Assembly: GCF_000226295.1 (NCBI RefSeq)
Contig: NC_016024.1
Coordinates: 417,501 to 481,500 of the forward strand
Direction: 5' to 3'
DNA: 64,000 nucleotides
Source: Chloracidobacterium thermophilum B
GTDB lineage: Bacteria > Acidobacteriota > Blastocatellia > Chloracidobacteriales > Chloracidobacteriaceae
A model generated the notes under the pieces. It worked only from the letters and a program-made list of their open reading frames with translations. It was not told the origin of the DNA and did not search any database. This document shows, one piece after another, positions 24,936 to 35,966 of the stretch. Numbering within the stretch: position 1 is the first letter of the stretch; each line of letters begins with the position of its first letter. The translations under genes and the position numbers were made by a program.

Positions 24936-24985
<50 letters not shown>

Positions 24986-25112
24986 CCACGGGGGCGTTGA
25001 ACAGTATTCATGCCGCCCCCGGAAAGTCAACAAAAATCAACATTACCCCTTGCTTTTCCAGTAGTTTGCGGCGATACTTGCGTTGAACCGGATTGAACGG
25101 TTTTGAGCAAAA

Positions 25113-25156
25113 GTGGCTGGATGGTGGCTGGATGGTGGCTGGATGGTGGCTGGATG
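25113..25156 (+). repeat. Four tandem 11-bp repeats, putative integrase arm sites (left)
   Basis: GTGGCTGGATG is repeated four times without interruption. Two further copies with one mismatch each lie at 35813-35834, inside the other end of the element. The position between attL and the integrase gene and the recurrence at both ends fit integrase arm-binding sites. Confidence 0.6.
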
Positions 25157-25221
25157 GCCGACACCCGGATTCGGGCGGATGACACCCGGACACATATCCG
25201 CTGCCCGGAAAGGAACAGGTT

Positions 25222-26514
25222 ATGGAGCGTGTGCGGTTGACGGCGGGCAGGGTGCAGACTTTTACCTGCCCCAAAGGGAAAAGGCAGGCTTTTCTGCGCG
25301 ACAGCGAAGTGCCAAGCCTGGCGTTGCGGGTGACGGCGAATGGCAGCCGCGCCTACGTTTTCGAGAGAAAGCTGAACCGGCACACCATTCAAATGACCAT
25401 CGGCAGCCCGGCGAACTGGACAATCGAGGACGCGCGCGCACGGGCAAGGGAACTGGCGTCGCTGGTTGACCGGGGCGTTGACCCAAGAACGGAGCTGGAA
25501 AAGCAGCGGCAGGAAGCCGAAGCCGCCCGTGTCCGGCGCCAGGCAGCCGAAGTCTGTGCGCTGGAAGTCTGGCACGCTTATTGCCACAGCCGGCGCGCCG
25601 TGTGGGGCGAACGCCACTACCTTGACCATCTTCGTATGGCTGCTCCGGGGGGCGAACCCCGGAAAAAGGGCGAAGGCGTCACCCAACCAGGGCCGCTTTA
25701 CGCGCTGCTCAATCAACCGCTGGCACGTCTCACCCCCGAAGCCGTCGAAGCGTGGGCCGCCCGGAACGCCCATCGCCCAACGCAAGCCCGTCTCGGATTG
25801 CGCCTGCTCAAGGCTTTCCTGAACTGGTGCCGCGCGCAGGCGTCCTACGGGGCGGTGCTACCCGCCGAAAACCCGGCCCACAGCCGCAAGGCGCGCGAAA
25901 CCCTGGGGACGCCCAAAGCCAAAGACGACTGCCTGCAACGGGAGCAGCTTGCGCCGTGGTTCGAGAAGGTACGCCAGCAACATCCGACGGTAGCCGCGTA
26001 CCTGCAAGCCCTGCTGCTGACAGGCGCCCGTTCCGGTGAACTGCTCGAACTGACGTGGGACGACGTGGATTTCCAATGGCGGACGCTTACCATCCGGGAC
26101 AAGGTGGAAGGGGAGCGGACGATTCCGTTGACCCCGTACGTTGCCCGTCTGCTGGCGGCACTCCCACGACGGAACCAATGGGTGTTCGCATCGGACAGAA
26201 CCGATGCCCCCATCAACCGTCCAAGTCACGCCATGGAGCGCGTCTGCCGGCTGGCAGGCATCCCACACGTCACCCTGCACGGGCTGCGCCGTTCGTTCGG
26301 GACGCTCTCCGAATGGGTGGAAGCCCCCGTGGGTGTCGTAGCCCAACTTATGGGCCACCGTCCAAGCGCCACAGCCGAACGCCACTATCGCGCCCGCCCG
26401 ATTGACCTGCTGCGAAAGTGGCACACCGGAATCGAAGGCTGGATTCTCGAACAGGCCGGCATCGAACAGCCGCCGGCGGAAGCGAACCCGGCAAAACTCC
26501 GGGTGGTGAGGTAA
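25222..26514 (+). CDS. Tyrosine recombinase/integrase, P4-integrase type
   Basis: A 430-residue integrase that should catalyse insertion of the element into the tRNA gene. The N-terminal DUF4102-type arm-binding domain has LPSLALRVTANGSRAYVF-like sequence (here VPSLALRVTANGSRAYVF) and TIGSPANWTIEDARARA. A core-binding domain follows, then the catalytic domain with Arg in LLTGARSGELL (about residue 270), His-x-x-Arg in HGLRRSFGT (about 353-356), His in LMGHRPS and the nucleophile Tyr in ERHYRARP (about 389). All catalytic residues are present, so it looks active. AAAGGA lies 8 bp before the ATG. Confidence 0.95.
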   Translation: MERVRLTAGRVQTFTCPKGKRQAFLRDSEVPSLALRVTANGSRAYVFERKLNRHTIQMTIGSPANWTIEDARARARELASLVDRGVDPRTELEKQRQEAEAARVRRQAAEVCALEVWHAYCHSRRAVWGERHYLDHLRMAAPGGEPRKKGEGVTQPGPLYALLNQPLARLTPEAVEAWAARNAHRPTQARLGLRLLKAFLNWCRAQASYGAVLPAENPAHSRKARETLGTPKAKDDCLQREQLAPWFEKVRQQHPTVAAYLQALLLTGARSGELLELTWDDVDFQWRTLTIRDKVEGERTIPLTPYVARLLAALPRRNQWVFASDRTDAPINRPSHAMERVCRLAGIPHVTLHGLRRSFGTLSEWVEAPVGVVAQLMGHRPSATAERHYRARPIDLLRKWHTGIEGWILEQAGIEQPPAEANPAKLRVVR

Positions 26515-26624: not shown

Positions 26625-27581
26625 ATGGCGTATCCGTCATGGGTGCCGGCTGGCGTTGCGCAGAGGGTTGAAGCCCTTGTGGAAGGATGGCGCAGAAGTG
26701 AGGAACACATAAGACTCCGGTTGGCTGACATTGCTATCAAAGCCAACATCAGGCGCGGGAGAAGGCCCCACAGCCTGCAAAGCGCGTGTAAGCGCATGCA
26801 AAAGCTCCTGCAAGACCGCCTGCAAGCCCGCATTGACAATATCCGCGACGACATAGCCTGCATCGAGCGTCTGACTCGAAGCCATAACGACGGACGTGAC
26901 TATGACAGACAGGAGCTTTACGGGAGATGGCTGTCTGGTCTCGACGACCGCAAAGTGGTCATGTTTCTCCTTGCGGCCTGTGAGGCGGCGCACAACCACA
27001 CCAGGATACGCCGGCAACTGAGAGAGGCCCGCCTTCTGCGCCAAGAAATCATCAAGGCCGCCAGGGAACTGTCCAGACAAATCAGAACCCTCGAATCGCT
27101 GGACGTTGGTATGCCGAAGGAGTTGGTTTCAACGCGCGCGCTACTCAGGATAGCGAACCCTTCTCACCCCGATGACGTTGACGCATGGGAAACCCTGCGC
27201 CCGCAAATACTGGGAGACGAGCCGGACTCAATCGTGAAGGTATGCGACGAGCTGGACTCAAGCGCGGAGGTACGCAGCGCGTGGGATTCAGCCCCTGACT
27301 TGGCTGACCTGCTTGAGGCTGCGGCTATGGCGGCTGAAAACTACATAACCGCGCCCCTACACTCACGACAGAAGGGTGAGAAAACAGACGCCATCCGGGT
27401 TTTTGCAGGCATACTGACCAGGATTTTCAAGTTCGACCTGACGGACCGCATCAAGCACGCAATGGCGGTAGCCGCAACTATAGCCATCAACCGCCCCGAC
27501 ATCGTTGTTACCTACGACAACGTGCGTAAAGCCCTGGACGGCAGACAGCCCCGCCCTGGAAAAGTCGCGCCCGAAAAATAA
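26625..27581 (+). CDS. Hypothetical helical protein of the element, 318 residues
   Basis: I do not recognise a family. The protein is soluble, predicted almost entirely helical, Arg-rich in its first half (residues 40-160, e.g. IRRQLREARLLRQEIIK), with coiled-coil potential around 140-165. The second half is more acidic (LGDEPDSIVKVCDELD). No signal peptide, membrane segment or nuclease motif is visible. Its position between the integrase and the AlpA-like gene is a place where satellites carry accessory genes. A good ribosome site (GAAGGGGGTG) precedes the ATG. Confidence 0.7.
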   Translation: MAYPSWVPAGVAQRVEALVEGWRRSEEHIRLRLADIAIKANIRRGRRPHSLQSACKRMQKLLQDRLQARIDNIRDDIACIERLTRSHNDGRDYDRQELYGRWLSGLDDRKVVMFLLAACEAAHNHTRIRRQLREARLLRQEIIKAARELSRQIRTLESLDVGMPKELVSTRALLRIANPSHPDDVDAWETLRPQILGDEPDSIVKVCDELDSSAEVRSAWDSAPDLADLLEAAAMAAENYITAPLHSRQKGEKTDAIRVFAGILTRIFKFDLTDRIKHAMAVAATIAINRPDIVVTYDNVRKALDGRQPRPGKVAPEK

Positions 27582-27896: not shown

Positions 27897-27924
27897 ACCC
27901 TTTGGGCGTGCCCAAAAGTTTCGA

Positions 27925-27952
27925 CCCGGCACAGGGGAAAGCTGTGACCGGG
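27925..27952 (+). other. Leader hairpin before the RepA-like gene
   Basis: CCCGGCACAG (27925-27934) pairs with CTGTG and CCGGG (27942-27952) apart from one bulged A. A smaller hairpin, TTTGGG-CGTG-CCCAAA, lies at 27901-27916. Neither is followed by a T-run. They fill most of the 78-bp gap before the RepA-like gene and may affect its transcription or translation. Confidence 0.4.
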
Positions 27953-27974
27953 CCGGGAAAGGAAAAAGGCTTAT

Positions 27975-28874
27975 ATGGAAGCTAAATCTAACTGCACGAA
28001 CGGTCAACTGGAACCGGCGCTGAACAATGCGTCAGGGCGCGGCCGGAGATTCAGGATGACATCGGCTTTCGAGCTGCGGCGCAACCCGCTGTCGCACGAT
28101 TGGCTGATTCAAGGTTTTCTCGAAGCCAATACGCTCGCCCTTCTGTTCGGCGAACCGGCAGCCGGAAAGTCGCTGCTGGCGCTGGACTGGGCCGCGTCTG
28201 TCGCAACCGGACGCGCCTGGTGCGGACGCCAGACCCGGCGGGGGACGGCAATCTACCTGGCGGGCGAAGGCTACCGGGGGCTGGCCCGGCGGCTGGCCGC
28301 GTGGGAAAGGGTGAACGGACAGGAATCGTCTCCCGATGTGCCGCTGCTCTTTTCAGAGTGCATTGCCGGACTGCCCGACAGCGTAGGCGCGGTTATCGAG
28401 GGCATTGACGCGGTTGCCATCCGGTACGGGAAGCCGCTGCTGGTGGTTATTGACACCTTGGCGCGCTGCTTTACCGGCGATGAGAACAGTGCCGGCGGTA
28501 TGGGCGGCTTCCTGACCGCGTGCGACGCGATGCGCCTTCGCTATGGCTGCACCGTGCTGATTGTCCATCACTCCGGTCACAGCGATAAGGGGCGCGCGCG
28601 CGGCTACTCATCGCTGCCGGCGGCGATGGACGCGATTTACCAACTCGAAACGGAAGGGGAAGGCAGGCGGAAACTGAAATGTTCCAAGGCCAAGGACTTC
28701 AGCCCGCCTGCTACCTGCTCCTTCATCATTCAGGAAGTGAAGTTGCCCGATACAGACCAGAGAGGAAAGCCCGTTACGGCGCCGGTACTGAAAGAAGCAC
28801 CTGCCCTGGCGGAGCTACCCCAAGCAACCGTCAGTCCGGCGTGGCGCCACCCAAGCCGGACTTACCTGAGATAA
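27975..28874 (+). CDS. RepA-like hexameric replicative helicase (AAA/RecA-fold ATPase)
   Basis: The 299-residue protein has the RSF1010 RepA/KaiC-like helicase core. Walker A is FGEPAAGKSLLALDWA (about residues 55-70), then a strand with TAIYLAGEGYRGLARR. Walker B is LLVVIDTLARCF, and motif H3/H4 is VLIVHHSGHSDKGRARGYSSL (cited as VHHSGHSDKGRARGYSSL). It would unwind the element's origin. AAAGGA precedes ATG 27975. It is followed after 22 bp by the TOPRIM-DUF927 gene. The gene resembles satellite and plasmid replication helicases. Confidence 0.85.
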   Translation: MEAKSNCTNGQLEPALNNASGRGRRFRMTSAFELRRNPLSHDWLIQGFLEANTLALLFGEPAAGKSLLALDWAASVATGRAWCGRQTRRGTAIYLAGEGYRGLARRLAAWERVNGQESSPDVPLLFSECIAGLPDSVGAVIEGIDAVAIRYGKPLLVVIDTLARCFTGDENSAGGMGGFLTACDAMRLRYGCTVLIVHHSGHSDKGRARGYSSLPAAMDAIYQLETEGEGRRKLKCSKAKDFSPPATCSFIIQEVKLPDTDQRGKPVTAPVLKEAPALAELPQATVSPAWRHPSRTYLR

Positions 28875-28896: not shown

Positions 28897-31800
28897 GTGT
28901 ATCTATCACATCACTCTCTATCGCGTCAACCGTACCAGCCGGCGCCGGCGCCGGGAAGCACGCTGGACGATGCTTTGCCGGAAATCCGCGCCCGGCTTGG
29001 CTGTGCGCCACAGCGGCTGTACGAGACTACTAACGGACGCCCCATCCGCTTCGGACGGGGCAAGTCAGCTTGGGCTTTTGCCCATTACGTAAACGGCACC
29101 TGGTTTGTCCACTACGGTGACTGGCGCACCGGGGAACAGTACACGTGGACTTCGCATAGCCAGTACGAGCTGACGGATGTCGAGCGCCGGCGTCACCAAG
29201 AAAACCTTCGCCGGTTTCTGGAACAGGAAAGACTGAAGCGGGAAGGTCAGCAGGCGGCGGCGGCCCGTAGCGTGCAGGCGCAATGGGAAGCCCTACCGCC
29301 GGCGCCGGCAGACCATCCCTACCTGGTACGCAAAGGCGTCCAGCCGCACGGCATCCGCATCAAAGCCGGCAGTCTTGTCGTGCCGTTGCGTGACATCGCC
29401 GGGCAACTGTGGAGCTGGCAGACGATAGACGCTGAAGGCAGGAAGCGGTTCTGCAAGGATGGGCGCACCAGTGGTCTGTTCTTCACCTTCGGCCAACCCG
29501 GCCAACTCGAAACCGCTAACACCATCCTGGTCTGCGAAGGATGGGCAACGGGCGCAACGCTGCACGAGTCCACCGGGCGGCCGGTAGTGGCAGCGATGAA
29601 CGCCGGCAACCTGCTGCCAGTGGTGCAGGCGCTACACGGGAAATACCCGCAATGCCGGCTGGTGATATGCGCCGATGATGACTGGAAAACCGCCGGCAAT
29701 CCGGGAGTAACCAAAGCCAGAGAGGCAGCCTGCTCTGTCGGGGCGGCGGTTGTCGTTCCGCTTTGGTCAGTGGAGCGCGGCGAAAAGGACACCGACTTCA
29801 ATGACCTGGCGCTGGCGGAAGGGCGTGAAGCGGTTCAGCGTCTCGTTGAAGCTGCTCTGGCGGCGCCGGAAGGCAGGACAGACAGCGCGACAGACAGCGT
29901 GACAGACAACGCGCCGGCGCCGGACGAGACAACCGACAGCGTGCCTGACGTGCCATCACCTGGTGTGCCGGATGACGAGGCGCCGGGCAGAACAAAGGGC
30001 AAGGCGTCTGGCAAGGCAAAGAGCAAGGCAGAGGCCAAGGCGCCGGTCAAGGCAGTGCCCGGGCCGGACAAGGCAAAGGTCAAGCCAGAGGACAATGCGC
30101 CGGACAAGGCAGAGACTAAGGCGCCGGCCAAAGCGAAGGTCAAGGCAAAGGTCAAGCCAGAGGACAAGGCGCCGGTCAAAGCGAAGGGCAAGGCGCCAGG
30201 CAAGGCGAAGGCGAAGGACAGGGCGCCGGATAAGGCAAAGCCAGAGCAGGAAGGGAAGCCAGAGCAGGAAGGGCGGAAGTGGACGTTTCAGGACTCTGTG
30301 CTGTTCAACCTGGAAGGGCTGTTTGGCGTGAAGCTCGAAGGCCCGCTGCCTTACGAACAACCCATCCGCTTCCGCACGTCCGGCTTCGGTGAAACCGGCT
30401 GGTGCATCCTTTACCGGCTTCCCAGCGGCGCCGAGGCGGCCAAGTACGGCGATCACCTGACAGGTGTTTACCACCAGCAGTTCTCAAAAGACCTCATCAG
30501 CCCGCAGGAAAAGCGGCAACTGGAAGCGGAGCTGCACCAGCTAGAGCAGGAAGGGCAGCAACGCCAGGAAGAGGCGCACAGGCAGGCGGCTGAAAAGGCA
30601 CAGGCGGAATGGGCATCGCTTCTTCCGGCACTCCCTGACCATCCCTACCTGCAAAGCGCCGGCGTCCAGCCCCATGACGCGCGCGTCACGCGGAAGGGCG
30701 CGCTGTGCGTACCGTTGCGCGATGCCAGCTGGCAGTTGTGGAACCTGTGGTTCTTCGAGGCGGACGGCAAGACGTGGAAGGTGTCCGGCGGGCGCACCCG
30801 TGGACTGTTCGCGCCCTTCGGTGAACGCGCCAGCTTCGAGGCGGCTGAAGCCATCCTGGTCTGTCAGGACTGGCTGACCGGCGCGCTGCTGCACGAGTCC
30901 ACCGGGCGGCCGGTAGCGGCATCCGACAGGCTGGATGCGACGCTTCAGGCATTGCGCGAATGGCTACCAGAGGTGAAGCTGGCGATATGCGTTGACAATG
31001 ACCCGGCCGCGCTTGAGGAAGCCGGGATTGCCACCCGGAAAACCGGCGCGGTTGTTATCACGCCACCAAGCGAAGGCGAACCCGTCACCTTCCTTGACCT
31101 GGCAGGCACCAGAGGACGGGAAGCGCTACGCCAATTGGTTAGTGACGCATTGCGTCAAAACCCGCGCCCCGGCAAAAACGAGCGTCCCTGCTTCTGGCTG
31201 GTTGTAGAGCCGGTGGAAGACCGGGAAGGGAAGCAGAGCAGGCAGTACAAGCCGGGCGTGTATTACTTCGGGACAAAGACTGAAAAGGCTTTTGGCAGGA
31301 CAGTTGAGGTTCCCGTTGAAGCCTGGCTGTGCAGCCCGATCCGGCGGAAGGCGCGTACCATCGAATGGCCCGACGGCGCCCAGGGCGTCAGGCTGGACGT
31401 TCACGACGGAAGCGGCTGGCGCGATGTGGTGCTATCGCGTAGAGACCTAGCCTCGCGACGCCATCGTGAAATCCTGCTGGACTGTGGCGCCAGCCTGGAA
31501 GCCCAAAGCACGGACGCCAAGGCGTGGCTGGTGGAATACCTGCAACAACCCATGCCCCGGCGGGAGTACACCACAGAGCGTACCGGCTGGCACGGACAGC
31601 AGTACGTTTTCCCGGACGTTACCATAGGGAAGGGTGAGACCATCCTGTTCACGGGCGCACGGGCTACAGACAAGCCTTTGACGGGCGGCGAACTTGCCGA
31701 CTGGCAGAAGTCGGTTGCAGCGCTGGCAGTGGGCAATCCCTTGCTGACGTTTTCAATCTCGCTAGCCTTTGCCGGGCCGCTGCTCGAACCAACCGGACAC

Positions 31801-33054
31801 AACGCCGTGCTGGTGCAGCTTGTCGGGCGGAGTACAACCGGCAAGACAACCTGCCTGCTGGCGGCAAACTCCGTTGTCGGGCCGGAAGCGCTGGTAACAA
31901 CCTGGTACACCACAGCCAGCGGGCTGGAGCAGAAGGCGCTAACGCACTGTGACGGCTTCCTGGCGCTGGATGAAATCGGGCAGGTGAAGCCGGATGTGCT
32001 GGATGGCGCGATTTACACCCTGGCGAATGGCACGGCCAAGCAACGCGCCAAAGCCTACGAACACGGCGTAGGGGCGGTGCCAACGCAACACTGGCGGGTG
32101 GCGGCGCTTTCGACCGGCGAAAAGACAATCGAAACCCTGCTGGCGCTGGACAAGCGCAACGTCAACGCCGGACAGGCTGTGCGGTTTATCGAAATCCCGG
32201 CGGAAGAGCAATACGGCGCGTTTACGGAGCTGCACGGCTACGAGTCCGGGGCAGCCCTTGCCGATGCCCTGCGCAAGGCAGTGAGACAGTACTACGGCAC
32301 GCCTATCCGGGCTTTCCTTGAGAAGCTGTGCAACGATGACAGAGATAAGCTGAATCAGGTGCTGGACAAGTGTACGGGACGCCTGCTTGAGGCTGTGAAA
32401 AACAGCGGTGCGGCACCAGGTGCGCAGGCCAGCCGCGTCCTGACTTCAATGGCGCTGGTGGCGGCGGCTGGTGAGCTGGCAACGTCCTACGGCATCACCG
32501 GCTGGAAACAGGGAGAAGCGCTTGAGGCGGCGCTGCATTGCTACCGGCTGTGGGCACGGAGACGGGCTGCCGGAACCGACTTCGAGACAACATCCATAAT
32601 CCGCCAGGTGTATGACTTCATCACCGAGCATGTAGATTCACGGTTTAGCCCGATAGTTCGTGGTGGCATACCGGCAGGCAATGACATACCCGGCGATGAG
32701 CAGGGCGATGAGCAGGCAGGTGATGACATACCTGGCGGCAAGTCTGGCACAGTGTTAGACACAGTGTATGTCAATAACCCTGTCGTGCATCGTCGCGCCG
32801 GTTACTACTGTGACCTGCCGAATGGAGACCGTCTGTACAAGTTCACCAGTAGAGGATTCCAAGATGCTGTAAAGGGCTTTGACCTCAGGCACGCGCGGGA
32901 TGTGTTGAAGAGTCTGGGCGCGCTTATTCCGGGCAAAGACCACGACAGTCAATCCGTCCGGACCGGGACCGGATACCCCGACAAAGTGCGTGTTTACGTG
33001 ATTTCATTCAATGCGCTGAATCGCGCGCTGGAGCAGGTAGGAGGGTGTGAGTGA
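28897..33054 (+). CDS. TOPRIM-DUF927 primase-helicase with duplicated N-terminal half
   Basis: A 1385-residue replication protein. Residues 1-330 end in a TOPRIM-like domain with ILVCEGWATGATLHES (catalytic-type Glu about 213) and LVICADDDW (about 257). Residues 360-460 are a Lys/Ala/Pro-rich repetitive linker. Residues 465-765 repeat the first unit, but the TOPRIM Glu is Gln (LVCQDWLTG) and ADDD is VDND. From about 780 comes a DUF927 helicase domain with Walker A GRSTTGKTT (about 977) and Walker B FLALDEIGQV (about 1020). The GTG start follows AAAGGAG by 13 bp. It likely primes and unwinds element DNA; the role of the altered copy is unknown. Confidence 0.85.
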   Translation: MYLSHHSLSRQPYQPAPAPGSTLDDALPEIRARLGCAPQRLYETTNGRPIRFGRGKSAWAFAHYVNGTWFVHYGDWRTGEQYTWTSHSQYELTDVERRRHQENLRRFLEQERLKREGQQAAAARSVQAQWEALPPAPADHPYLVRKGVQPHGIRIKAGSLVVPLRDIAGQLWSWQTIDAEGRKRFCKDGRTSGLFFTFGQPGQLETANTILVCEGWATGATLHESTGRPVVAAMNAGNLLPVVQALHGKYPQCRLVICADDDWKTAGNPGVTKAREAACSVGAAVVVPLWSVERGEKDTDFNDLALAEGREAVQRLVEAALAAPEGRTDSATDSVTDNAPAPDETTDSVPDVPSPGVPDDEAPGRTKGKASGKAKSKAEAKAPVKAVPGPDKAKVKPEDNAPDKAETKAPAKAKVKAKVKPEDKAPVKAKGKAPGKAKAKDRAPDKAKPEQEGKPEQEGRKWTFQDSVLFNLEGLFGVKLEGPLPYEQPIRFRTSGFGETGWCILYRLPSGAEAAKYGDHLTGVYHQQFSKDLISPQEKRQLEAELHQLEQEGQQRQEEAHRQAAEKAQAEWASLLPALPDHPYLQSAGVQPHDARVTRKGALCVPLRDASWQLWNLWFFEADGKTWKVSGGRTRGLFAPFGERASFEAAEAILVCQDWLTGALLHESTGRPVAASDRLDATLQALREWLPEVKLAICVDNDPAALEEAGIATRKTGAVVITPPSEGEPVTFLDLAGTRGREALRQLVSDALRQNPRPGKNERPCFWLVVEPVEDREGKQSRQYKPGVYYFGTKTEKAFGRTVEVPVEAWLCSPIRRKARTIEWPDGAQGVRLDVHDGSGWRDVVLSRRDLASRRHREILLDCGASLEAQSTDAKAWLVEYLQQPMPRREYTTERTGWHGQQYVFPDVTIGKGETILFTGARATDKPLTGGELADWQKSVAALAVGNPLLTFSISLAFAGPLLEPTGHNAVLVQLVGRSTTGKTTCLLAANSVVGPEALVTTWYTTASGLEQKALTHCDGFLALDEIGQVKPDVLDGAIYTLANGTAKQRAKAYEHGVGAVPTQHWRVAALSTGEKTIETLLALDKRNVNAGQAVRFIEIPAEEQYGAFTELHGYESGAALADALRKAVRQYYGTPIRAFLEKLCNDDRDKLNQVLDKCTGRLLEAVKNSGAAPGAQASRVLTSMALVAAAGELATSYGITGWKQGEALEAALHCYRLWARRRAAGTDFETTSIIRQVYDFITEHVDSRFSPIVRGGIPAGNDIPGDEQGDEQAGDDIPGGKSGTVLDTVYVNNPVVHRRAGYYCDLPNGDRLYKFTSRGFQDAVKGFDLRHARDVLKSLGALIPGKDHDSQSVRTGTGYPDKVRVYVISFNALNRALEQVGGCE
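29980..30275 (+). repeat. Coding repeat: Lys/Ala-rich linker
   Basis: The DNA repeats short units around AAGGCAAAG, AAGGCGCCGG and CCAGAGGACAA, which encode motifs such as GKAKAK, DKAKVKPED and DKAPVKAKGKAPGK. It separates the two copies of the duplicated unit in the TOPRIM-DUF927 protein. The composition resembles histone-H1-like DNA-binding tails. Confidence 0.8.
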
Positions 33055-33920
33055 TGGGAGCAGCGGAAGTGCTCAGATTTCTGTCAACCTGGAACGAACC
33101 CAGCCCAGCCCGGAACGAACCCAGCGAAGCACAGCCCAACTCATCGTGCAGCGCGCCTGAACCGACAATGACGCGCAATGACGCGCCGGGTGACGTAACC
33201 CCCACAGACACCAGGCAGGACGCGCCTGGCGGCATTACAGGGCAAAGTACACAGCCTGACAAAGCAACCAGCCAGCCGGATGACGCGGCGCGGCTACGGG
33301 CGCGGATTGACGGCTGTCTGATAACGGAACCTGACCCGGCGCTACGGCTGTTTCTCAAGTCGCTGCTCCACAGCAGCCACCACTACCCGGCGGAGATGGT
33401 GCGCCGGCAACTCGAAGCGTACCTGCAAGCCGGCAACCCTGATGACTTCCTGAACCGGCTGGCGGCGCTGCACCTGGACTGGGTGAAGCAGGACGTTGCC
33501 AGCGACCCGGACGGCAACTGGCTGAAGCACGGCAACGCCGGAGACCGCACGCTGATGCTCGAAGCCATCAGGGAAGCCTTCGAGCAGGAAGCCCGGCCCG
33601 TACTGCGTTGCTACCTGGCAAAGCTGGCGCGTAGAACGTTGACCGACCCGGTGTACGCACGCGAAAGACTGGATGACTACACCAGCAAGCGTGATGACGA
33701 TACCTGGCAGTGGCTGGCGGAAGTAGCCGTTGCCGGCAGCCCTGAAGCGGCTTTCCAGTGGCGGCTGCAAGCGGCACGCCGGCAGACAACCGACGCCGAC
33801 CTGCACGACTACCTGGACAAGCTCGAACAGGAAGCGCGTGCAAACCTGCCAGAGGCTGTCTCGAAGCTGGAAGCCTTCACCAAGCCTGTGACGCCCGTCC
33901 AGGGCGCGCCGGCGGCGTAG
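33054..33920 (+). CDS. Hypothetical protein of the element, about 288 residues
   Basis: I do not recognise a family. ATG 33054 lies 8 bp after AGGAGG and overlaps the previous TGA; GTG 33051 is also possible. The first 85 residues are low-complexity and rich in Pro, Thr, Asp and Gln (NEPSPARNEPSEA), probably disordered. The rest is a helical domain with SLLHSSHHYPAEMVRRQ and HLDWVKQDVASDPDGNW. Tight coupling to the primase-helicase gene suggests a replication or maintenance partner. Confidence 0.7.
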   Translation: MGAAEVLRFLSTWNEPSPARNEPSEAQPNSSCSAPEPTMTRNDAPGDVTPTDTRQDAPGGITGQSTQPDKATSQPDDAARLRARIDGCLITEPDPALRLFLKSLLHSSHHYPAEMVRRQLEAYLQAGNPDDFLNRLAALHLDWVKQDVASDPDGNWLKHGNAGDRTLMLEAIREAFEQEARPVLRCYLAKLARRTLTDPVYARERLDDYTSKRDDDTWQWLAEVAVAGSPEAAFQWRLQAARRQTTDADLHDYLDKLEQEARANLPEAVSKLEAFTKPVTPVQGAPAA

Positions 33921-34024: not shown

Positions 34025-34531
34025 ATGGCAAAGCTATCACCTGACGATTGGGAGCAAATTCGCGCTGAACGTGAAGCCGGACTGAGTTTCAGGCGGCTGG
34101 CTTCCCGGCACGGTATCAGCAAGACGGCTATCATCCAGCGCGCCAAAGCTGAAGGTTGGGGCGATGGAGCGGACGTGGCGGAGCTGGTGCGGCGCAAAGC
34201 CAGCGCCAGAGTTGCCGGCGTGGACATTGCCAGCCCGGAAAAAAAGGCGGCGGCGATTGACACGGCGGCGGAACTGGCGGCGGACGTTATCCGGCGTCAT
34301 CAGGCGGAAGCCGAACAGGTGCGGGAGCTGTTCTGGCGCGGGCTGGAAGCCAGCCGGGCGGCGGAGACGCTGGATGAAAAGCGGCTGGCCTTCGAGACGC
34401 TCAAGGCGGCAAAGATTTCCAGCGAGACAGCCCTGAACCTGCAACGGATGGAGCGCATCAGCCACGGGCTGGACAACCAGGGCGGCAAAGTCGAACTCGT
34501 CATCGAGCGTAGCTACGGAATAGCAGCATAG
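34025..34531 (+). CDS. Small-terminase-like helix-turn-helix protein
   Basis: The 168-residue protein begins with an HTH of the kind found in phage small terminase subunits: WEQIRAEREAGLSFRRL, then ASRHGISKTAIIQRAKAEGW. A helical oligomerisation-like region follows (VRELFWRGLEASRAAETLDEKRLAFETLKAAK region, cited as DEKRLAFETLKAAK). Satellites such as PICIs encode their own TerS to divert a helper's packaging motor. No large terminase is present here. A general transcription regulator is the alternative. The ribosome site is GGAGGG before ATG 34025. Confidence 0.65.
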   Translation: MAKLSPDDWEQIRAEREAGLSFRRLASRHGISKTAIIQRAKAEGWGDGADVAELVRRKASARVAGVDIASPEKKAAAIDTAAELAADVIRRHQAEAEQVRELFWRGLEASRAAETLDEKRLAFETLKAAKISSETALNLQRMERISHGLDNQGGKVELVIERSYGIAA

Positions 34532-35812: not shown

Positions 35813-35834
35813 CTGGCTGGATGGTGGCTGGACG
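35813..35834 (+). repeat. Two 11-bp repeats, putative integrase arm sites (right)
   Basis: CTGGCTGGATG and GTGGCTGGACG, each one base from the left-end unit GTGGCTGGATG, lie in tandem 57 bp inside attR. Confidence 0.55.
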
Positions 35835-35890
35835 GCTTTGCCGGGCTGATGCCTGCTGCCTTCGAGCGCCCCGTAAACTACTGATTTTAT

Positions 35891-35940
35891 TAGTGGGACT
35901 TGCAGGACTCGAACCTGCAACCAACGGATTATGAGTCCGC
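35891..35940 (-). repeat. attR: element-supplied 3' part of the tRNA(CAT) gene
   Basis: 50 bp matching attL with three mismatches; the longest identical block is the last 23 bp (35918-35940), which covers the anticodon arm and is the likely crossover region. Together with 35941-35966 it restores a complete tRNA. Confidence 0.85.
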
Positions 35941-35966
35941 TGCTCTGACCGTTGAGCTAAAGTCCC
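35894..35966 (-). tRNA. tRNA with CAT anticodon (tRNA-Ile2 or elongator tRNA-Met)
   Basis: The minus strand folds into a 73-nt cloverleaf: acceptor GGGACTT/AAGTCCC, D-arm AGCTC..GAGC, anticodon stem GCGGA/TCCGT with loop CTCATAA, T-arm GCAGG-TTCGAGT-CCTGC and discriminator A. CCA is not encoded (CTA follows), unlike the two other tRNAs here. It lacks the GGG/CCC initiator pairs. The sequence is close to tRNA-Ile(CAT) genes whose C34 becomes lysidine, but elongator Met cannot be excluded. It is the integration site of the element. Confidence 0.92.

Follow-up and report, generated by a model that had tools for sequence, protein, structure and literature searches.

The 64,000-nt window analyzed here (the whole stretch from position 417,501 to 481,500, forward strand, of contig NC_016024.1 from Chloracidobacterium thermophilum B) raises the question of why one replication protein would carry two copies of a primase unit ahead of a single helicase motor. 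The gene concerned occupies positions 28897..33054 (+) of the window as one open frame of 1385 residues (aa) with a GTG start, and it sits in an ~11-kb element at tRNA-Met. Judged by sequence, its product is a replicative primase-helicase of a phage-satellite-like element. The open frame, Pfam matches and a survey of related loci define its double-unit layout, namely: unit 1, a primase unit of the DnaG/T7 gp4 type whose catalytic motifs are complete (28963..29862, +; aa 23-322); a K/A/P-rich linker that joins the two units (29887..30252, +; aa 331-452); unit 2, a degenerate primase unit (30286..31158, +; aa 464-754); and a DUF927 helicase domain (31246..32052, +; aa 784-1052; PF06048, E 1.8e-53). 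We favour, with a probability of about 0.5, the reading that the protein combines an active primase arm with a primase-derived collar that is non-catalytic and sits on the helicase. Computed evidence, described below, covers the repeat, the residues lost from the motifs, the predicted shared fold, the gene context and a single-unit paralog.

The 1385-aa open reading frame (ORF) holds a true internal duplication of the entire primase unit, as a preliminary description of this DNA had proposed. Local alignment of aa 1-345 with aa 451-790 gives 109 identical residues in 257 columns and a score of 426, against a mean of 37.4 and a maximum of 64 for 500 shuffles of the second stretch. The repeat spans the whole unit, reaching beyond the TOPRIM core, and both copies follow the module order given in that description: N-terminal domain, long helix, DHPYL, VQPH, VPLRD, HESTGRPV and TOPRIM core. 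The motifs reported for the two cores, CEGWATG and ADDDW in unit 1 and CQDWLTG and VDND in unit 2, are all found in the translation. High DNA identity around the HESTGRPV block is likewise recovered: a 29-nt exact match (29559-29587 = 30888-30916) lies within 20-codon windows in which the two units share 0.75-0.80 of their nucleotides, while identity elsewhere is 0.40-0.55 near either unit end and 0.52-0.70 in between. The linker between the units contains 26 K, 24 A and 18 P among its 122 residues, has a net charge of +7, and is encoded by DNA built on 12-nt based repeats.

Which of the two units could make primers? Unit 1 keeps the full motif set, including E214 (29536-29538, +) and D260 and D262 (D260-D262, 29674-29682, +), and matches Toprim_3 at aa 210-311 (29524-29829, +) with E 8.3e-14 when the whole protein is searched and E 1.8e-12 when the unit is searched alone. 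On the strength of these motifs, it very likely makes primers. In unit 2, six of these positions are substituted: E214 by Q657 (30865-30867, +), G215 by D658, K146 by A588, K183 by T626, D300 by T731 and N302 by L733, where D300 belongs to a TDFND motif that comes later than the DxD metal pair. Pfam run on the whole 1385-aa protein reports Toprim_3 once and then DUF927; the Pfam TOPRIM families have no match in unit 2, which matches phrog_2249 (E 4.3e-27). The earlier statement that the metal-binding acids of unit 2 are changed therefore stands for the TOPRIM Glu and for D300 and fails for the DxD pair, since D700 and D702 are kept as DND (30994-31002, +). Nor is VDND an altered pair, as had been supposed, with a middle N in 16 of 28 relatives sampled independently of sequence patterns. 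Because the TOPRIM Glu as well as K146, K183, D300 and N302 are lost, unit 2 is very probably non-catalytic and not a primase. The proposed inactivation is thus partly supported, since the DxD pair has no part in it.

The weight of these substitutions depends on how strictly the positions are conserved elsewhere. Conserved columns were defined on 32 non-redundant homologues, most of them from loci fetched with peptide patterns. Among 76 such columns, unit 2 keeps 31, unit 1 keeps 50 and the single-unit paralog keeps 56; unit 2 ranks last among 35 rows, the next being a single-unit relative, L080, with 42/79. The key columns were repeated on 28 units drawn by tblastn or hidden Markov model (HMM), a set made of 10 genome-search loci and 18 phage and plasmid matches, the latter chosen for diversity among the top matches out of 109 phage and 4392 plasmid records, with near-duplicate loci of the same genomes left out. 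In this set the Glu and the following Gly are present in 28/28, the first D of DxD in 28/28 and the second in 27/28 (middle residue N in 16, D in 10), K146 in 27/27 scorable units, K183 in 25/28, D300 in 23/26 and N302 in 24/26. A larger set of 213 outside units, distinct as strings and including many close relatives, gives the Glu in 213/213, K at the K146 position in 210/212 scorable units and at the K183 position in 208/213, D300 in 167/167 scorable units (46 gaps) and D262 in 211/213, with a middle residue of D in 126 and N in 69. It should be noted that the scan supplying 78 of these 213 units used a pattern containing EG; once the 78 are set aside, the Glu is E in 135/135 outside units. 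Apparent conservation of W263 and K264 was discarded as biased, since it came mostly from loci fetched with patterns including ICADDDWK, and is gone in the 28-unit set. Two single-unit relatives, L080 (the same place as L106 and G001) and L146, show DxG in place of DxD with the Glu kept, and the L080 unit is fused to a DUF3987 domain, not to DUF927.

For both units, the predicted fold resembles the primase core of T7 gp4. AlphaFold2 models built with 32-row alignments have mean predicted local distance difference test scores of 90.0 (unit 1) and 89.1 (unit 2), and the top solved chain for each is T7 gp4 (1q57_A), with Z 17.5, root-mean-square deviation 2.8 and 183 aligned residues for unit 1 and Z 16.6, 2.8 and 182 for unit 2. 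The primase region of Twinkle (7t8c_A) matches at Z 14.7 and 14.6, respectively. These structure matches barely cover the N-terminal part of either unit, and AlphaFold2 with a family alignment is lenient toward degenerate members. As for the motor, the helicase domain has a Walker A motif, GRSTTGKT, at aa 977 and a Walker B motif, LALDEIG, and matches 8tch (E 5.7e-11) and 5dgk (E 9.7e-07) when searched by sequence against PDB. The NCBIfam Cch1 match is weak and far under its cut-off. Helicase families other than DUF927 are not listed for the 1385-aa protein in either the Pfam or the PDB sequence matches.

A single-unit counterpart is present in the same genome. On the same contig, around 1.55 Mb, is a second satellite-like element (L005:3871-12799) whose genes follow the same order and whose integrase differs from that of the tRNA-Met element; in one quick comparison, its flanks shared no repeat of more than 17 bp (88% alike). 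Its paralog gene (L005:6490-9753, -; 1087 aa) encodes one primase unit and a DUF927 helicase. Like the double-unit gene, the paralog combines the unit with DUF927 and a K/A/P-rich stretch, and is accompanied by an integrase, an AAA_25-type ATPase and a small-terminase-like gene; it differs in having a single unit, with Glu and DxD intact. Its K/A-rich stretch precedes the unit, and the unit is followed directly by the helicase. The two elements are 99% identical over 455 bp and 95% identical over 828 bp. Windows at unit-1 residues 260-308 are 0.90-0.93 identical in DNA to the paralog, compared with 0.37-0.65 over residues 18-216 and 0.45 at 309-328. Such a patch amid diverged stretches indicates that the co-resident elements exchange DNA.

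In the tree, unit 1, unit 2 and the paralog unit form one clade (support 98/88). The best tree pairs unit 1 with unit 2 (95/79); the alternative pairings both survive the approximately unbiased (AU) test, with p-AU 0.098 (unit 1 with the paralog) and 0.295 (unit 2 with the paralog). Only the three-unit clade, and no particular order of duplication inside it, is supported by the sequences, and a single tree is unsafe because of the exchange patches between the elements. The end branch of unit 2 measures 1.8, those of unit 1 and the paralog 0.5 and 0.64.

If unit 2 has lost catalysis, is its fold still maintained? Of 65 hydrophobic columns, 56 are still hydrophobic in unit 2 (57 in the paralog), which is above all of 300 neutral runs over the whole unit (mean 41.5, maximum 51). 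In the core alone, 26/32 are kept, a number reached by 3.0% of 1000 neutral runs (mean 21.2). A change-rate test, which used only positions where unit 1 equals the paralog, finds fewer changes in hydrophobic columns of the TOPRIM core (9/29) than in its other columns (25/40; p 0.015). The p values of these selection analyses are per test and uncorrected for the several tests made. Considered with the opposing results given below, the evidence that selection has kept the fold of unit 2 is moderate and mixed.

How might the two units then work together? In the reading that we favour, unit 1 would lay primers as a DnaG/T7 gp4-type primase, and the K/A/P-rich linker would let this active unit reach the lagging strand. 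Unit 2, with the primase fold kept and catalysis lost, would sit directly on the DUF927 (MCM-like) motor as a collar, holding emerging single-stranded DNA (ssDNA) and/or steadying the ring. Unit 1 priming, unit 2 inactivity, ring assembly and ssDNA holding are what we infer here; the collar role itself, argued by analogy, we judge to have about even chances. The stronger form, a division of labour in one chain between a tethered active primase and a pseudo-primase that is selected, non-catalytic and in the service of the helicase ring, is put forward tentatively and falls somewhat short of even odds.

Known systems provide partial likenesses. T7 gp4 joins a single primase unit to a zinc domain and a RecA-type motor, and the Twinkle motor is also RecA-type. 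The likeness of T7 gp4 to our protein is in its primase region, which matches the predicted fold of both units, and the difference is that T7 has one unit, whereas here there are two units and a DUF927 motor. Membership of the Twinkle/T7 gp4 family was considered and rejected, since the motor is DUF927 and not RecA-type; the likeness is of working mode only. In Twinkle, too, a dead primase-like domain is retained ahead of a ring helicase, but there is no active unit in cis, and the protein is mitochondrial. One study describes this human primase-like domain as lying N-terminal to the ring helicase, its zinc and Mg-binding sites lost, and reports that the N-terminal domain, no longer active as a primase, still binds ssDNA, makes oligomers more stable and supports processive synthesis (PMC9860392). 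With this precedent, the regulatory or DNA-binding role that had been suggested for unit 2 is plausible by analogy. SCCmec Cch and SaPIBov1 Rep share the DUF927 helicase family (the 8tch and 5dgk matches), but the accessible sections of the reports on them do not describe TOPRIM primase units (PMC7581432, PMC10061031). The top phage match, Pseudomonas phage AH14b (AH14b_p15 and p16, KU708005), has a Toprim_3 primase unit and, by tblastn, a homologous helicase; it differs in that these are two separate genes, with one unit. AH14b is a proposed helper-dependent satellite in which its authors found no terminase gene (PMC4936722).

The double form is rare. Among 239 unit ORFs from 254 loci, several of which overlap or are near-identical, tandem units occur in 3, all of them this gene in overlapping loci, and single-unit homologues, the paralog included, are what the search otherwise found. 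Unit and helicase, the latter labelled with a purpose-built HMM from alignment A4, are fused in 21 of the 254 loci, 7 of these representing this genome's own two genes. No other tandem unit was detected in 162 genomes of the class, of which 6 matched at E 1e-15 (at most the best 13 candidates scored per genome), or in 396 genomes of the phylum, of which 6 matched (at most the best 5 scored per genome), and neither the 109 phage records with a match nor the 4392 plasmid records contain a single place covering 80% of the query. In the open-licence literature, to the extent that its text was accessible, we found no description of a protein with tandem or inactive TOPRIM primase units; papers matched on paired or inactive TOPRIM domains concern, by their titles, DNA gyrase and topoisomerase II. 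In five further loci (L078, L140, L141, L142 and L172), DUF927 proteins have long N-terminal regions (~290-450 aa) without a match to the primase unit; those of L140-L142 match DUF6371 under its cut-off.

Several results weigh against a collar on the helicase maintained by selection. In 19 of the 254 loci the helicase has a gene of its own, apart from that of the unit, and therefore fusion of the unit to the helicase is not required. K146 and K183, which are basic, conserved and possible contacts to nucleic acid, are lost in unit 2. Applied to the whole unit, the change-rate test gives p 0.06, and for the part upstream of the core it gives p 1. Where a hydrophobic position has changed, the new residue is again hydrophobic in 8/14 cases, against a neutral expectation of 6.7 (p 0.34). 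Changes specific to unit 2 in the core number 40, 27 and 33 by codon position, with no third-position excess, compared with 8, 14 and 16 for unit 1 and 5, 11 and 17 for the paralog; the pattern looks like relaxed constraint, although the difference is not significant (p 0.08). Finally, the double architecture is known from one genome, the consensus of a non-clonal enrichment.

The main rival view is that unit 2 is a decaying relic: recombination between related elements would have set an intact unit before an older one that is now drifting and stays in frame only because the helicase is downstream. The near-identical stretches shared by the two elements, together with the unit 1-paralog patch, supply the exchange that this scenario needs, and the long branch of unit 2, its codon-position pattern and the lack of any other double form in the class, the phylum and the 254 loci all fit it. 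Set against this are the retention of hydrophobic columns above every one of the 300 neutral runs, and above 97% of the 1000 core-only runs, and a predicted fold that is intact, leniency of the modelling notwithstanding; we consider the relic rather unlikely. An artefact is a different concern, namely that copies of the element were joined into a chimera during assembly and so gave the double unit. According to PMC8245765, the genome published for strain B in 2011 is a consensus from Roche 454 sequencing of an enrichment that was not clonal, and it differs from the PacBio genome of the clonal strain B-T (2015). The 2011 genome does hold two related elements with near-identical stretches and a low-complexity repeated linker exactly between the units. 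Unit 2 is just 41% identical to the paralog unit, however, and so was not taken from the second copy known here; a misjoin of two such genes within the linker would not place a linker after unit 1, given that the paralog linker is upstream of its unit; and the 4.2-kb frame is open. A chimera is thus improbable.

It is also conceivable that both units are catalytic, with unit 2 using DND and D658 or another acid, perhaps with a different substrate preference. Unit 2 still has D700 and D702, DND is a common form among relatives, and the change of G215 to D658 adjoins the lost Glu. Yet E is found in all 135 units not selected for it, K146, K183, D300 and N302 are lost as well, and the stretch past DxD aligns with gaps or variably between alignments, which makes this explanation very improbable. 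With an active arm and a non-catalytic collar as the preferred reading, the gene has a wider interest. Work on the non-priming role of a primase domain at a ring helicase has used human Twinkle, whose chain has no active copy; here active-looking and dead-looking copies share one chain and a single-unit control is in the same genome, so that the roles could be separated by deletion. If the reading is true, exchange between co-resident elements can build a replication protein and then split its work; if unit 2 is a relic, the gene is a snapshot of domain decay after recombination.

The surrounding element appears satellite-like from its gene content. It has an integrase with duplication of the attachment (att) site at a tRNA, its own replication genes and a packaging gene, and no capsid or tail gene is found among the element ORFs given to PHROGs and Pfam, a scan that did not take in every small ORF. 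Upstream of the primase-helicase are a tyrosine integrase (25222..26514, +; PF00589 E 1.8e-19, Arm-DNA-bind_3 E 1.2e-11, phrog_1 E 3.2e-40) and an AAA_25 ATPase (27975..28874, +; PF13481 E 3.7e-40), where DNA at 27908-28732 is 95% identical to the second element by blastn. Downstream are a hypothetical protein (33051..33920, +) with no family over curated cut-off, also present in the second element (33231-33877 DNA 73% identical to L005), and a small-terminase-like protein (34025..34531, +; phrog_1206 E 5.8e-15) with a 79% identical copy there. The capsid family PF05065, the only helper type sought, has no match in the genome (3,695,372 bp, two contigs) and was matched in 4/14 control genomes, and the main text of PMC8245765 makes no mention of phage, prophage, mobile or integrase.

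Directly 3' of the integrase is an int-alpA small RNA (RF02996; 26524..26602, +; 52.7 bits against a gathering score of 35.8), here in an acidobacterial element; it is the one match in the genome among the best 150 of 843 candidates scored. The next ORF (26625-27581) has no Pfam or PHROGs match to AlpA, small ORFs not being part of that search. The left attachment repeat (24936..24985), a partial copy of the tRNA-Met 3' half, is 50 bp long and 94% identical to the right one (35891..35940), which lies within tRNA-Met (35893-35966, -), and a tRNA-like remnant at 24939-25016 scores 29.1 bits against a gathering score of 29. Four copies of an 11-bp direct repeat lie by the left att (25115..25158, +) and two more near the right att (at 35815 and 35826; 35815-35836); these are possible integrase arm sites. 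Three differences separate the att copies; judged by eye, two of them compensate each other within a base pair of the tRNA T arm.

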